A stretch of 64,000 nucleotides of DNA, from NCBI GenBank assembly GCA_947174415.1, contig CAMWIW010000002.1:103127-167126 (forward strand). The letters are read 5' to 3'. The notes below the pieces were generated by a model that was not told the origin of the DNA, made no database searches, and saw only the letters and a list, made by a program, of their open reading frames with translations. Of this stretch, positions 3,519 through 10,529 are shown piece after piece. Made by a program: the position numbers and the translations under genes. Each line of letters begins with the position of its first letter. Positions within the stretch are counted from its first letter, which is position 1. This stretch comes from an uncultured Clostridia bacterium. GTDB lineage: Bacteria > Bacillota > Clostridia > Christensenellales > Borkfalkiaceae.

Positions 3519-5567
3519 ATGAATATTACAGCTAAGGAAATTCGCAATGTTGCGGTTATCGGGCACAGCGGCGAGGGCAAGACTACCCTTTGCGAGGCTA
3601 TGCTTTTTAACGGCGGAGTGATTGACAGAATGGGCAAAGTCGAAGACGGCACTACGCTTTTAGACTTCGACGAGCTTGAAAAGGCAAAAAAGATTTCCGT
3701 TTACACTTCGGTTGCGTGCCTTTTATGGAAAGGCGTAAAAATCAACCTTTTGGATTTGCCGGGCTTTTACGACTTCGAGGGCGAACGCCACGAGGGGCTT
3801 GCCGCGTGCGGCGCGGCGGTTTTGGTAATCGGCGCGAACGGAGTTCTGCCCATTGGCGCGGAAAGCGTGGTTGAATACTGCCTGAAACTCGGCAAGCCGC
3901 TTATTATTTTTATAAACGGTATGGACAAAGCCAACGCCGACTATGCGGGCACGGTTGCCGCGCTCAAAGAAAAGTACGCTGGCAAGCTTGCTCCCATTCA
4001 GTTGCCTATTATGGCAGACGGCAAAATGACGGGCTACGTCAACGCTATTCAGGAGAGGGCTTATAAGTTCTCCACGCAAGGACCGCAGGAAATTCCTATT
4101 CCCGCCGAGCTTAAAGGCTATATGGACGATATGCAGGCAAGCCTTATGGAAACGGCGGCGGAAAACGACGAAATTCTCTTAGACAAATATTTTAACGACG
4201 GCAGGCTTACAAAGGAAGAAACCGTTCACGGCGTAAGGCGCGGCATCGCCACGGGCAGCGTAATCCCCGTAATGGCGGGCAGTGCGTTGCAGAACCGCGG
4301 CGTTATTAACCTTCTTGACGAAATCGTGCGCTATATGCCCACCGCCAACGAAAGAAGAAACTCGCTTGCGACCGACCTTTTAGCAGACGAAATCGTCAAT
4401 ATACAGTGCGAAGAGGACGGACCGTTTTTAGCGCAGGTATTCAAGACGGTATACGACGCCTACTCAGGCAAAATGAATTATATTAAAATTTTCCGCGGGC
4501 GGCTGAAAACGGGTATGACCGTATTCAATCCCAACACGAACACGGAAGAACGCATTGGGCAGATTTTTGTTTTAAAAGGGAAAAAAGCCGAGCTAGTGCC
4601 CGAGCTTACCGCGGGAGATATAGGCGCGGTTAACAAACTGACGAATACCGATACCAACCACACGCTTTGCGCGGTTGGGACTTCGTTGGTATTCGACCCT
4701 ATCCGCTTCCCCCACCCCGCCATTTCGCTTGCGGTTAAGCCCGCGACGAAGGGCGACGAGGACAAGACCTTTGCGGGTTTTAAAAAGATGCTCGAAGAGG
4801 ATTACACTTTTTCGGTTGAAAAGCGCGCGGACACGGGCGAACTTATTATCAGCGGACAAGGCGAAGTTCACCTCGAAATGCTCGCAAAGAAACTGAAATC
4901 GCGCTACGGGATTTCAGTCAACCTTACAGAACCGAAAATCCCATACCGCGAAACGATACGCGCGGTGTCTAACGCAGAGGGCAAGCACAAAAAGCAGTCG
5001 GGCGGACACGGACAGTACGGACACTGCAAGGTGCGCTTCGAGCCGTTTGACGGGGACTTCGAGTTCGGCGACGAGGTCGTCGGCGGCGCAGTGCCCAAGC
5101 AGTACGTACCCGCCGTTGAAAAGGGGTTGCGGGAATGTCTTTGCCGCGGAGTTTTGGCGGGTTATCCCGTTACGGGCGTCAGGGCTGTTTTATACGACGG
5201 GAGCTATCACGACGTGGACTCTTCCGAAATGGCGTTTAAAGCGGCTGCCGCGCTTGCCTTTAAAGAGGGAATTAAGAACGCTAAGCCCGTACTTTTAGAG
5301 CCCGTTATGAAGTTGAAGGTTCTGGTTGCGGGCGAATACCTCGGCGGGGTTATGGGCGACATATCCAAACGCAGGGGAAGAATTTCAGACAGCTCAACCG
5401 AAGGCAACCTTACAACGGTTATTGCCGAAGTGCCTCTGTCCGAAATTACGAAGTACGCAACCGACTTGCGCGGCTTGACGCGCGGGCAGGGTAAATTCAC
5501 AACCGAATTTTTGCGGTATGAAGAAGTACCCCCTCAACTTGCCGAAAAAATAATAAGCTCTACCTAA
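3519..5567 (+). CDS. Elongation factor G-like GTPase (EF-G paralogue)
   Basis: 682 aa; P-loop GHSGEGKTTL, DLPGFYDF, NGMDKANAD, C-terminal EF-G domains (GQGEVHLEML, GGVMGDISKRRGRI). Confidence 0.9.
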   Translation: MNITAKEIRNVAVIGHSGEGKTTLCEAMLFNGGVIDRMGKVEDGTTLLDFDELEKAKKISVYTSVACLLWKGVKINLLDLPGFYDFEGERHEGLAACGAAVLVIGANGVLPIGAESVVEYCLKLGKPLIIFINGMDKANADYAGTVAALKEKYAGKLAPIQLPIMADGKMTGYVNAIQERAYKFSTQGPQEIPIPAELKGYMDDMQASLMETAAENDEILLDKYFNDGRLTKEETVHGVRRGIATGSVIPVMAGSALQNRGVINLLDEIVRYMPTANERRNSLATDLLADEIVNIQCEEDGPFLAQVFKTVYDAYSGKMNYIKIFRGRLKTGMTVFNPNTNTEERIGQIFVLKGKKAELVPELTAGDIGAVNKLTNTDTNHTLCAVGTSLVFDPIRFPHPAISLAVKPATKGDEDKTFAGFKKMLEEDYTFSVEKRADTGELIISGQGEVHLEMLAKKLKSRYGISVNLTEPKIPYRETIRAVSNAEGKHKKQSGGHGQYGHCKVRFEPFDGDFEFGDEVVGGAVPKQYVPAVEKGLRECLCRGVLAGYPVTGVRAVLYDGSYHDVDSSEMAFKAAAALAFKEGIKNAKPVLLEPVMKLKVLVAGEYLGGVMGDISKRRGRISDSSTEGNLTTVIAEVPLSEITKYATDLRGLTRGQGKFTTEFLRYEEVPPQLAEKIISST

Positions 5568-5571
5568 TTTC

Positions 5572-5613
5572 AAACGAAAGCCCCGCGGTATTCGCCGCGG
5601 GGCTTTCGTTTGA
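5572..5613. terminator. Bidirectional intrinsic terminator between convergent genes
   Basis: Perfect 18-bp arms caaacgaaagccccgcgg / ccgcggggctttcgtttg, 6-nt loop. Confidence 0.85.
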
Positions 5614-5624
5614 TTTGCCGTTAT

Positions 5625-6764
5625 TTAGTTAAACGAAACCTCTCCGTATTTTATATATTTAATAAGCCTGACAAACGCTCCGACCACGAATACGCCGCCC
5701 ATTGCCATAAAAAAGGCGGAGGCGCAGTACAACACACTGAACGAAGTCAAAAACTCGTGCAAGCTTGCAAACGGCAACGGCACACCCGTTGTGTTACTTA
5801 TCAGTAGACACAGCACTACGGGGAACACCACGAACATACACCCGAAAAGCAGCGGAATGATAAACACCAATACTATCGGCACGAAACTAAACGCGGTACA
5901 CATTACAATCAGTCCTATACCGATAAAGATAACACCGCCCTCTGCGGGGATAGTGCTGTCAGGCGCATAGTGCAAACCGATAACCGCGCACCCCGCCAAC
6001 ACTGCAACTATTCCCATACACAGCCCGCCCATATGCGTGATATCAAGGTTTTTACGGAAATCGCTTCGCCTTTCCTTTGCACGGCTCTTTTTGTCTTCCG
6101 AACCGTACAGCGATTGTATGTGAAGTTTTGCTCCGAAAATTTCTTTAAGTTTTTTTAATTCGCGTATAGGAAGGCGCAAGCCCGTACAAGTAACGCACTC
6201 CAAAGTGTATGCAAGTATCGAGAACGTACATTCCTTGCCCGTCTCGTACGCGGTAATTTTTGAAACGCTTGAACGGCGCAACACCTTGACCTCCGCCCCG
6301 TCCGTTACGCGGATATAATTTTCGTAAACTTCAAATACGGGTTGAGGGTCGGGATAGTCTAACTTATCATAATAGTTTTCCATCATTTCCGCACTGTCTT
6401 CAACCCCCGCCCTTTCGTTATTCCGAACCAACTTGTGGCGGAGGACAAACCGCAAAAACTTGTCCCACAGTTTAAACATTGACAGAAAAACTATAAGAAT
6501 GCACACCGCCAAAACAATAAAATCTACTATATGGCTTAGAAGTGTCTTAGCACCGCCGCACAGCACGTCGTCGATTACGGTATACAAAAACCAGAACACG
6601 AGAAAAGCCGAAATTATATACAGATAAATTGCGACAGGCGAACGCCATGTTTTTTTGCGTTCGCCAGCTTTTTTGTTATTTGATTTTTTAACACTTTTAC
6701 CAAACCCGTAAAGTTTTACACCCAAATCCTCCGGCGGGTTTTCAAGCACAATACTATATGCCAT
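5625..6764 (-). CDS. Multi-TM membrane protein of unknown function
   Basis: 379 aa with several hydrophobic segments; 1-bp gap to the CobW-like gene, same strand. Confidence 0.6.
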   Translation of the reverse strand: MAYSIVLENPPEDLGVKLYGFGKSVKKSNNKKAGERKKTWRSPVAIYLYIISAFLVFWFLYTVIDDVLCGGAKTLLSHIVDFIVLAVCILIVFLSMFKLWDKFLRFVLRHKLVRNNERAGVEDSAEMMENYYDKLDYPDPQPVFEVYENYIRVTDGAEVKVLRRSSVSKITAYETGKECTFSILAYTLECVTCTGLRLPIRELKKLKEIFGAKLHIQSLYGSEDKKSRAKERRSDFRKNLDITHMGGLCMGIVAVLAGCAVIGLHYAPDSTIPAEGGVIFIGIGLIVMCTAFSFVPIVLVFIIPLLFGCMFVVFPVVLCLLISNTTGVPLPFASLHEFLTSFSVLYCASAFFMAMGGVFVVGAFVRLIKYIKYGEVSFN

Positions 6765-6765
6765 A

Positions 6766-7719
6766 TTAATAATAAGTTACTACCGCTTCTTCGGGCGGGT
6801 CGGAGCGCTCGGCTTTTTCCGCTATCAGCACAGGGCCTTCGCCGCGGTATACGGCGTTCTTTTCAAGCGCGATTTTAGCGGTTACGGTAAGCCAGTCGCG
6901 GGTTTCCACTCCCTTTATAAGGTTGCCGATTTTTACGGCGAAACCGTCGTAGGCAATGTCCGCCTCGCAACAAGTCATTATGTGCCTGCCGAGAACGATA
7001 TAGCCCTTGGGCACTTTCTTCGAAACCGCAGCCATACCCTTAAAACGCACGGTCTTGCCGATATACTCGTCGGTCTTTTCGGCAAGGTCGCGATAGAACC
7101 AGGCAAAATCTCTGTCCTCTATCTCGATTACGGGCGCGTTCACGTCGAACGGCATAGGGTCTTCTATATCGTCGTAAACAACTTCTCCGCCCAAATATTC
7201 GTAGACTATGTCGGGGCGGCGGGATATGCCGCGTATGACTTTGTGGAAATCCTCTTTTACGTACTCGCCTTTAAAACGGTTGAAAACCACCATTTGCGTC
7301 ATCTGCACTTTATCAAAAACGAGTTGACGCATATTCTGGTTGAAGTTTAAAAACGTGGTTGCGTCGAAGAAGGTCATTATCTGGTCGATAACCCAATTTT
7401 CGGGCATTGCCTCGAAGAACTGCGAAAGTAACCAAGTGCCGTTGTATTCGACGACTACGCGCTCGACTTTGTACTTTTTAGCAAGCGCGGAGAGGTTGTC
7501 CATAGTAAGCTCGTCCACGCTTTCGAGTGTAACTTTGGTTACGTAGCGTACTTTGAATAAGTCGGGGTTGTACTCCTCTTCGCCCTCTTCGCAGACCAAA
7601 AGCAGAGTTCTTTCGCCCGTGTTCATTCGCTCGTCTTCGAGCGTTTCCTGTATGAATTTAGTTTTTCCCGATTCCAAAAAACCGAGGAATAAGAAAACCG
7701 AAATTTCTTGCTGTTCCAT
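6766..7719 (-). CDS. CobW-like P-loop GTPase fused to YcgQ/DUF1980-like C-terminal domain
   Basis: N-term LFLGFLESGKTKFIQETL (P-loop); no CxCC motif; C-term YIGKTVRFKGMAAVSKKVPKGYIVLGRHIMTCCEADIAYDGFAVKI resembles the TIGR03943/DUF1980 domain. Confidence 0.65.
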   Translation of the reverse strand: MEQQEISVFLFLGFLESGKTKFIQETLEDERMNTGERTLLLVCEEGEEEYNPDLFKVRYVTKVTLESVDELTMDNLSALAKKYKVERVVVEYNGTWLLSQFFEAMPENWVIDQIMTFFDATTFLNFNQNMRQLVFDKVQMTQMVVFNRFKGEYVKEDFHKVIRGISRRPDIVYEYLGGEVVYDDIEDPMPFDVNAPVIEIEDRDFAWFYRDLAEKTDEYIGKTVRFKGMAAVSKKVPKGYIVLGRHIMTCCEADIAYDGFAVKIGNLIKGVETRDWLTVTAKIALEKNAVYRGEGPVLIAEKAERSDPPEEAVVTYY

Positions 7720-7725
7720 AAAAAT

Positions 7726-8841
7726 TTAATTTACGCCGAATAAAGCGGCCAACTCTTTCTCATTAATTTTCGCGCCGATAACACAAAGTCTGCCCGTGTA
7801 TGCGGCTGCGCCCTCGCGCACGTCCGCTTCTTCGGGGATATAGTCAAAGTGCAACCACTTGCCGCAAGTGCAGGGAACTATGCCCTTTGCGCGAAGCACC
7901 GTGCCGAAACGCTTTTCGTCCGAAAGTGCTGAAAGGATAGCGCTAAGCTCTTTTTTGGAAAACTTTTTGCTCGTTTCAACTCCCCAGCTCGTGAAAACCT
8001 CGTCCGCGTGATGATGCCCGTGGTCGTGGTCATGACAGCAACCCTCGTGGTCGTGATGTTCGTGATGTTCGTGGCAGCACTCGCCGTGCCCGTGCTCTTC
8101 GTGGTGATGGGAGCAACCGCACTCTTCGCCGTGGTGATGTCCGTGTTCGTGCTCCTCGTCGTGGTCGTGGTGATGTCCGCAACAGCAACCTTCGTGGTGA
8201 TGCCCGTGATGTTCGTGTTCTTCAAGCTCGTGAAGCTCGTCTTCCAAAGTGTCCGAACGCTCGATAGCGGCAAGAATAGCCTTGCCGTCAAGCTCGTTCC
8301 AAGGCGTTGTAACGATAGCCGCGTGGGGGTTCTGCTCACGGACGAGCTCTTCCGCCTTTGCAAGCTTTTCGCCCGCAACGTCGGCGTGGCTGAATACTAT
8401 GCATGACGCAGATTTAATTTGGTCGTTGAAAAACTCACCGAAGTTCTTCATGTACATTTTGCACTTAGACGCGTCAACGACGGTCGCACGGGCGTTCACC
8501 TCGCAATCGTGAAGGTGCGCGCTCTCAACAGCGCGGATAACGTCCGAAAGCTTACCTACGCCCGACGGCTCGATTAATATTCTGTCGGGATGATATTCGG
8601 AGTAAACCTTTTCAAGCGCTTTTGCGAAGTCGCCGACGAGCGAACAGCAGATACAGCCCGAATTAAGCTCGTTTATCTGAATACCCGCTTCCTTTAAAAA
8701 GCCGCCGTCAACGCCGATTTCACCGAACTCGTTTTCGATAAGAACGAGCTTTTCTCCTGCGTAAGCCTCTTTAATTAGCTTTTTGATCAGCGTAGTTTTA
8801 CCCGCGCCCAAAAAACCCGAAAATATATCTATTTTTGTCAT
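7726..8841 (-). CDS. CobW/COG0523 (ZNG1-type) metal GTPase with long His/Cys-rich insert
   Basis: GFLGAGKTTLIKKL, SGCICCSLVGDF (CxCC), ~80-aa His/Cys/Glu-rich stretch, CobW_C region. Confidence 0.92.
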   Translation of the reverse strand: MTKIDIFSGFLGAGKTTLIKKLIKEAYAGEKLVLIENEFGEIGVDGGFLKEAGIQINELNSGCICCSLVGDFAKALEKVYSEYHPDRILIEPSGVGKLSDVIRAVESAHLHDCEVNARATVVDASKCKMYMKNFGEFFNDQIKSASCIVFSHADVAGEKLAKAEELVREQNPHAAIVTTPWNELDGKAILAAIERSDTLEDELHELEEHEHHGHHHEGCCCGHHHDHDEEHEHGHHHGEECGCSHHHEEHGHGECCHEHHEHHDHEGCCHDHDHGHHHADEVFTSWGVETSKKFSKKELSAILSALSDEKRFGTVLRAKGIVPCTCGKWLHFDYIPEEADVREGAAAYTGRLCVIGAKINEKELAALFGVN

Positions 8842-8875
8842 AACATACCTCTGCTATTTTAACCGACTTCAAATG

Positions 8876-8920
8876 CGGCGCAATGCAAGGCGGCACGGAG
8901 TGCAACGCCGCAGTGCGCCG
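8876..8920. repeat. Repeat family B copy (structured intergenic)
   Basis: Arms CGGCGCA (8876-8882) / TGCGCCG (8914-8920); core gcaaggcggcacgga shared with 39575-39589. Confidence 0.5.
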
Positions 8921-8941
8921 TATATATTAGGTTCGTTCGTT

Positions 8942-9478
8942 TTAATACGTAAGTTTACGGAACGACCCGTCCTCTTTATGTATCATAATATTGGCGTCCT
9001 GATTATCCGCAAGTGTTTTGCAGAAATCGATTGCTTCCTTTTGGGTTTTGAAAAGCTTTATCGCCTTTGCGCCGCCCGCCGCTTTGACTTGCCACATGTT
9101 TTCGTCCTTACGCTTGGAAACGTGATACGTTTTAGTAGTGGGTTTAGCGGGCTCTGTCTTTGCCGACGCCGTAGTTTTAGTCGTCGTCTTGGTCGCAGGT
9201 TTGTCAGCCGTAGTTTTAGCCGTCGTTTTCTTCTCGGCGGGCTGTTCCTTTTCCGCGGGCTTTTCTTCTGCTACTTCTGCCTCCTCAACGGACGTGGCTT
9301 CCGCAACGGGTTCTTCGGTTTTTACAACCTTGCTTTCGGCAGCCGCAGTTTTAGTCTTTCTGATATGGACGGCACAACAAATAATTACTATTAAAGCTAT
9401 AACCGCAACGAGAACTACCGCACCTATTATCCAATAAAGAACGGGCAGTCCCAAAATCAAGTCATCCATAGTTTTCAC
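8942..9478 (-). CDS. Membrane-anchored DUF2188 domain protein
   Basis: N-terminal TM, Lys/Thr/Ala/Glu-rich linker, C-terminal KTYHVSKRKDENMWQVKAAGGAKAIKLFKTQKEAIDFCKTLADNQDANIMIHKEDG. Confidence 0.75.
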   Translation of the reverse strand: MKTMDDLILGLPVLYWIIGAVVLVAVIALIVIICCAVHIRKTKTAAAESKVVKTEEPVAEATSVEEAEVAEEKPAEKEQPAEKKTTAKTTADKPATKTTTKTTASAKTEPAKPTTKTYHVSKRKDENMWQVKAAGGAKAIKLFKTQKEAIDFCKTLADNQDANIMIHKEDGSFRKLTY

Positions 9479-9544
9479 CTCTTAGTCTTTTTAATATTGT
9501 AAACTATATCGATTGCAAAATCAAGTAATTTGGGAAAAAGAAAA

Positions 9545-9572
9545 TGCGCCCGCCGTTCAGTCGGCGGGCGCA
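9545..9572 (-). terminator. Intrinsic terminator hairpin
   Basis: tgcgcccgccg TTCAGT cggcgggcgca. Confidence 0.65.
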
Positions 9573-9584
9573 ACTTAAACCGTA

Positions 9585-10529
9585 TTAATACTTCGTTACT
9601 TTTACGCTTTGGATTACGATGGGTTGCTTGGGCACGTTGAAATCCACAAGAATACCCCTGTCGTTATCAGGCTTGTTGGAATATACGTCGTTGTTGTCTA
9701 CGGGAACGTCGGAAACAATCGTATAAAAATCGCTTGCCGTATTCGAATGGTTGTTCTCGATATACTCTTTGACTGCCGCTACCAAATCGTCGAACGCTTC
9801 GGTATCTTTAAGCTGAGCAAAAACGGTATAGTTCATTTCCGAATACGCCGAGCTTACGCCTGTCTGCAAAGCAAAAACAGAAGTTGCACAGTTACTGTCG
9901 TAATCGGCAAGAATGATTTGGTCGTCCGTAGGGGTAACGTAGATTTTCTGCGTTGATTCCTTTGCATAATAGTACATTTTAAGGCAACCGTAATCAGCGG
10001 TAAGTGCGCCTTTTTCAATCTCTTGATTGATATTGTTGTAGAACTCGCCCATTACCGTGGGAAGAGCGTCCTCGCTTACGACGTACTCTTTACCGTCTTC
10101 GCCATACATGCGGTTAGAGTAAACGGAAGCCGAAAGCTTGCCGTCTGCGAAAAGCTGAGAATACGCGTCCTCCTTTGAAAAATCTTCAAAGTATTCGGAC
10201 ATAAGTCCCGTGTTGTCTATCTTCGAAACGTAAGCGGATTTATCGTAAGTATAGCCGCCCGTGAACCAATCGTTCGTCTGATAATTGTGAATAATCGTAT
10301 TGTCGTAGAAATTTGCGTCGGCAAGTTCGATAAAGTGCCTTACGGTATGGGGATACATATTCCTGTAAAGCTTATAGTCAACGGCGTAAGTTTCACCGTT
10401 GAATTCGTAAGTGATGCGCACTTCGGGGTGATCCGTTTCGGGATTACAGCCCGCAACCGCGCCAACCGAGCAGACGATAAGCGCAGACGCAAAACACAAT
10501 GCAATTTTTTTGAATATCTTAGACTTCAT
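9585..10529 (-). CDS. Lipoprotein with cyclophilin-like peptidyl-prolyl isomerase domain
   Basis: Lipobox VGAVAGC; TYEFNGETYAVDYKLYRNMYPHTVRHFIELADANFYDNTIIH cyclophilin-like. Confidence 0.7.
   Translation of the reverse strand: MKSKIFKKIALCFASALIVCSVGAVAGCNPETDHPEVRITYEFNGETYAVDYKLYRNMYPHTVRHFIELADANFYDNTIIHNYQTNDWFTGGYTYDKSAYVSKIDNTGLMSEYFEDFSKEDAYSQLFADGKLSASVYSNRMYGEDGKEYVVSEDALPTVMGEFYNNINQEIEKGALTADYGCLKMYYYAKESTQKIYVTPTDDQIILADYDSNCATSVFALQTGVSSAYSEMNYTVFAQLKDTEAFDDLVAAVKEYIENNHSNTASDFYTIVSDVPVDNNDVYSNKPDNDRGILVDFNVPKQPIVIQSVKVTKY

Follow-up and report, generated by a model that had tools for sequence, protein, structure and literature searches.

A CobW-like P-loop domain fused to DUF1980_C in Clostridia: a possible soluble metal relay derived from a permease-linked system

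In a window of 64,000 nucleotides from an uncultured Clostridia bacterium, the gene at positions 6766..7719 on the minus strand encoded P0001, a conserved gut-bacterial protein of 317 aa in which a CobW-like P-loop domain was fused to a DUF1980_C domain, as judged from Pfam and NCBIfam profiles. Together with the neighbouring CobW GTPase gene, it formed a conserved unit of two genes, both encoding soluble proteins. The components are known families. With a probability somewhat above even, the pair is best explained as a two-gene soluble metal-handling module that was derived by deletion and acts as a nucleotide-gated relay. The wider proposal is more tentative and is held at rather less than even probability: an undescribed metal transport system of CobW, a second P-loop GTPase joined to ArsP_1, and OB-fold DUF1980_C would have become, through a single deletion, a nucleotide-gated metal relay of two soluble proteins, now widespread in Clostridia.

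Domains and motifs of the fusion protein

Both domains of P0001 were recognised above the Pfam cut-offs, as the sequence-only reading of a CobW-like/YcgQ-DUF1980-like fusion had proposed. The cobW profile (PF02492) matched residues 8-149 (7273..7698, minus strand) with 32.3 bits against a cut-off of 20.7 and an E-value of 9e-8. DUF1980_C matched residues 194-312 (6784..7140, minus strand) with 61.2 bits against a cut-off of 25.9 and an E-value of 1e-16. The suspected likeness of the C-terminal half to TIGR03943/YcgQ proteins was borne out for their C-terminal domain, the only part of TIGR03943 that matched; the score of 69.7 bits was below the NCBIfam cut-off of 88.8. The N-terminal transmembrane domain of DUF1980 (PF09323) had no match in P0001. 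The same was true of CobW_C (PF07683), the position of which was taken by DUF1980_C. Transmembrane segments and signals were absent from P0001, which predicts a location of its DUF1980_C in the cytosol.

The Walker A motif GFLESGKT was located at residues 13-20 (7660..7683, minus strand). A second motif, E-Y-N-G at residues 91-94 (7438..7449, minus strand), stood where CobW has EPSG in the alignment to the neighbouring GTPase P0002. Across the P-loop domains of fused and unfused proteins, G13, G18, K19, E44, G46, E91, N93 and G94 were invariant in 77/77 sequences. The CxCC metal motif, already noticed as missing from P0001, was found in none of 80 fusion proteins, and the N-terminal domain need not contact metal without it. 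Nucleotide binding by P0001 is probable from the retention of all key residues. The DUF1980_C domain carried the motif C250-C251-x-x-D254 (6958..6972, minus strand), the proposed metal site. Both cysteines were conserved in all 77 sequences (51/51 fused proteins and 26/26 TIGR03943-type relatives) and the aspartate in 76 (50/51 and 26/26). Fusions down to about 50% identity kept Walker A, E-x-N-G, FNR and MTCC-x-x-D.

A sequence search among solved structures returned no relevant relatives of P0001. The AlphaFold model, calculated with 24 relatives, reached a pLDDT of 89.6 and a pTM of 0.80. In Foldseek searches, the N-terminal half, predicted to adopt a SIMIBI-class fold, resembled the SIMIBI-type GTPases Ffh, HypB and UreG. 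The DUF1980_C domain, modelled alone with a pLDDT of 90, had its best matches among the OB folds of Rim1, RPA, RMI and AsnRS; with E-values of about 1e-3 and TM-scores of 0.4-0.5, these matches inform on the fold class and not on function. By model and Pfam match together, the C-terminal half is predicted to be an OB-fold DUF1980_C and not an ordinary CobW_C domain, the outcome that would have spoken against the original reading.

Gene neighbourhood and distribution

The fusion gene was separated by 6 bp from the gene for P0002 (371 aa; 7726..8841, minus strand) and by 1 bp from the gene for the membrane protein P0003 (379 aa; 5625..6764, minus strand), and these distances agreed with the initial description. 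P0002 showed the features of COG0523 proteins: cobW and CobW_C domains in Pfam, the CxCC motif as GCICC at residues 62-66 and a long His-rich insert. Among 80 surveyed loci, a CobW gene adjoined the fusion in all 79 that had upstream DNA, at a median distance of 3 bp. P0003, a multi-TM protein, matched no family above cut-off in Pfam or NCBIfam. Its homologues (26-50% identity) lay beside the fusion at 3/80 genome-contig loci and 4/29 same-genus loci, downstream of the fusion gene in the few same-genus genomes concerned.

The sequence-only reading had combined CobW, fusion and membrane protein into a three-gene metal-handling system. The 1 bp gap and common strand of P0001 and P0003 fit such joint action, but the rarity and divergence of P0003 homologues and the lack of a match to any metal-transport family make it very improbable. 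The constancy of the CobW neighbour and the scarcity of P0003 homologues define a conserved unit of two genes, with P0003 as an adjacent, lineage-specific gene outside it. Domain order and CobW neighbour recurred in other genomes, and metal handling remains the most likely role of the fusion paired with a His-rich CobW, whereas the third gene was mostly missing.

The fusion was present in 56/61 genomes of the same genus, nearly always as a single open frame, with few copies cut at contig ends; the five genomes lacking a match were 76-85% complete. It occurred at no fewer than 587 places in the genome contigs searched and, counted as full-length matches, in 75/392 genomes sampled across the class. 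Given this recurrence, the fusion does not stem from a misannotation or misassembly. Among 24 diverse relatives of P0001, Pfam detected DUF1980_C in all and cobW in 23. As these genomes are public, the architecture must also occur in public protein databases.

Arrangements varied in distant families. The order of CobW and fusion was reversed at loci L194 and L195, and the neighbouring CobW belonged to another subtype at L162, L166 and L197. For two fused P-loop-DUF1980_C genes (L165:4368-5303 and L196:4460-5395), no adjacent CobW was detected. The respective genomes, G412 and G263, held further fused copies, so these genes are possible paralogues with other partners.

Permease-linked relatives and origin of the fusion

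In other members of the class (L142-L193), the P-loop and DUF1980_C domains were encoded by neighbouring genes. Profile searches located the genes of 26 unfused loci. The first gene was CobW, the second encoded the P-loop domain and the third a TIGR03943 protein that had a TM N-domain as well as DUF1980_C. The P-loop domain occurred on its own (209-218 aa) or as a fusion with an ArsP_1 permease of 8 TM segments (about 510-600 aa). In most of these loci CobW, P-loop-permease and TM-DUF1980_C were on one strand. Given this order, a single in-frame deletion would produce precisely the gene pair seen in the window. Based on the gene sizes of L142, one contiguous deletion of about 1.4 kb would have removed the permease and TM segments. 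Intermediates retaining part of the permease were not found among the loci examined.

Trees were calculated for each domain, separately and concatenated; the separate N and C trees were short and had some long branches. In the N-domain tree, rooted with CobW, the fused forms made up one clade with an SH-aLRT of 97 next to the permease-fused forms. In the C-domain tree, they grouped, with a support of 99, with the DUF1980_C domains encoded in these operons (L142, L182-184, L186, L151, L187-189), and the long-branched L166 lay outside the fused group and was unplaced. The concatenated tree recovered the fused clade with 100/98, nested within permease-linked forms (99/94 and 99/87). A single clade of all permease-linked forms was rejected with an AU p-value of 0.0015, and of 1e-6 when two long rows were left out. 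These sequence trees show the fusion as a single lineage nested inside the CobW - [P-loop-ArsP_1] - [TM-DUF1980_C] systems. They suggest that a membrane transport system turned soluble through the loss of its membrane parts.

Alternatively, the fusion could have arisen when a P-loop gene standing alone recombined independently with a DUF1980_C gene. Such single P-loop genes do exist (L143-L147, L160). However, the N-terminal half of the fusion grouped beside the permease-fused and not the stand-alone forms, both halves grouped with the same operons, and the gene order fits one deletion. Recombination is therefore considered rather unlikely, and deletion from a permease operon is the preferred origin.

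Some relatives departed from the common unfused arrangement. Three loci (L146:3116-5737, L147:2697-5313 and L160:1082-3701) combined CobW, a stand-alone P-loop gene and ArsP_1, and DUF1980_C was not detected there; a permease with a second GTPase can thus exist without DUF1980. Small DUF1980_C proteins of 152-184 aa with one TM segment (L153:3942-4496, L154:4327-4839 and L155:3973-4431) had lost the CC motif and were found outside any ArsP_1 or CobW context.

Metal-regulation context

Flanks of 11/26 unfused loci contained a gene for a Fur-family protein or an ABC-3 (Zn/Mn-type) permease. L149 and L157 showed a gene run of ABC ATPase, ABC-3 permease, Fur, CobW, P-loop-ArsP_1 and DUF1980, with the families confirmed. 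The profiles did not assign the Fur proteins near unfused loci to Zur. Near fused loci, the flanks of which varied in length, genes for Fur, ABC-3 or ArsP_1 were found in 0/107 cases. A scan with the B. subtilis-type (Bacillus-type) core gave no Zur-box-like site above shuffles upstream of CobW at fused, distant fused or unfused loci.

Family searches of the host genome (G000, 96% complete) detected P0001 and P0002 as its only cobW-domain proteins above cut-off and a single DUF1980_C. A FUR-family regulator and an ABC-3 metal permease were absent, as was ArsP_1, the YcgR-type permease that had been named as the usual partner of DUF1980 proteins. ABC-3 was found in 0/7 sampled genomes of the host family. 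A role of the fused system as a genome-wide substitute for Fur/Znu was rejected as a general rule, because Fur was present, in a patchy distribution, in 27/61 same-genus genomes and ABC-3 in many fusion-bearing families.

Nucleic acids are frequent ligands of OB folds. The OB domain of the fusion might bind RNA, DNA or protein, which would make the pair a nucleotide-switched regulator with a structural CCxxD. Its best structural matches and the missing metal-regulation signature near the fused genes are consistent with this. Yet the modest TM-scores indicate fold only, CC and D are also conserved in membrane-tethered relatives, the partner is a His-rich CobW with CxCC, and genes for Fur and ABC-3 are located close to unfused relatives. 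A regulator of this type is regarded as distinctly unlikely.

The pair could also serve an unlinked membrane transporter, with the fusion as a soluble regulatory subunit docking on that permease. Both domains are part of a permease operon in the unfused relatives, and fused and unfused systems occurred together in the genomes G251, G324 and G319, both in keeping with such a subunit. The coexistence also indicates that the fused form is no simple substitute for the unfused one. Against a transporter elsewhere in the genome, the host lacked both ArsP_1 and ABC-3 permeases, and ArsP_1 was present in 17/75 fusion-bearing genomes versus 164/317 others, a comparison of lineages that are not independent. 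Service to an unlinked permease is held to be unlikely.

Proposed function

The most likely function of the fused pair, as far as it can be derived from sequence, is that of a soluble nucleotide-gated relay for a metal, probably zinc, that connects the His-rich CobW GTPase with the CCxxD site. G3E GTPases form dimers and bind metal by CxCC (PMC9164220). The CobW GTPase would collect a transition metal, probably Zn(II), via its CxCC motif. The second P-loop domain, in P0001, would dock onto it, a step proposed because HypB and other G3E GTPases act in dimeric form. GTP binding or hydrolysis would then drive movement of the metal onto or off the CCxxD site. Applied to the permease-linked relatives, this relay would serve to load or gate the permease, and the fused pair would act as a cytosolic chaperone/acceptor pair. 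Metal binding at CCxxD and contact with CobW are thus predicted features, and zinc is suggested by analogy with the unfused relatives only.

Comparison with known systems

P0001 shares the P-loop G3E-like fold, Walker A and E-x-x-G with COG0523/CobW GTPases of the G3E family (YjiA, ZigA/ZagA, YciC). It differs from them in lacking CxCC and CobW_C and in having EYNG and DUF1980_C instead; its neighbour P0002 is the one with the typical features of members. With TIGR03943/YcgQ/ScfB proteins (DUF1980), the partner of which is the ArsP_1 permease YcgR/ScfA, it has the R-x-x-x-x-CC-x-x-D core of DUF1980_C in common. In contrast to these, it has no TM N-domain, scores below the TIGR03943 cut-off, is cytosolic judging by its sequence and has no adjacent ArsP_1. 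The closest systems are the CobW - [P-loop-ArsP_1] - DUF1980 operons, which have the same three soluble modules, order and invariant residues but keep the 8-TM permease and TM anchor and are partly accompanied by Fur or ABC-3 genes. In Bacillus anthracis, Zur binds between the operon of an ArsP_1 permease (BAS1632) and yciC (BAS1633), which encodes a COG0523 GTPase (PMC6336718). This places a COG0523 GTPase beside an operon that encodes an ArsP_1 permease and is controlled by a zinc regulator, although in another arrangement and with no fused P-loop-DUF1980_C reported (PMC6336718).

In the literature covered, which was mostly outside the subscription journals, neither the fused pair nor the GTPase-permease system was found described, and no publication was found that joins CobW with DUF1980-family names. 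Six such family names appeared in just two of 5.39 million papers. These genes were not mentioned in a paper on C. difficile and calprotectin. To our knowledge, most COG0523 GTPases are without a known client. Nor is a function known for the widespread membrane pair ArsP_1/TIGR03943 (YcgRQ, ScfAB), which a streptococcus requires for fitness in mice (PMC5584981). The fusion ties together these two open questions, the clients of COG0523 and the role of ArsP_1/TIGR03943. It predicts that a CobW GTPase has DUF1980_C as a partner in the cytosol and that coupling to metallochaperone GTPases extends to some ArsP_1 permeases; by homology, the C domain of YcgQ/ScfB is predicted to be cytosolic as well. 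Since the fused pair comprises two genes for soluble proteins, purified proteins should give access to its metal binding, to the formation of a complex and to any stimulation of the GTPase, which is hard for the membrane version.

Other features of the window

Promoter and terminator scans returned no more hits than in shuffles, and Rfam found nothing in window positions 5000-10500. Positions 3519-5567, beside ribosomal protein genes, encoded an EF-G-like GTPase of 682 aa, identified from its sequence alone and apparently a second EF-G-type protein. A protein of 178 aa was encoded at 8942-9478, with one N-terminal TM segment and a C-terminal repeat-like domain (..AKAIKLFKTQKEAIDFCKTLADNQ..). 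It was also located upstream of CobW in several other loci of the same genus.
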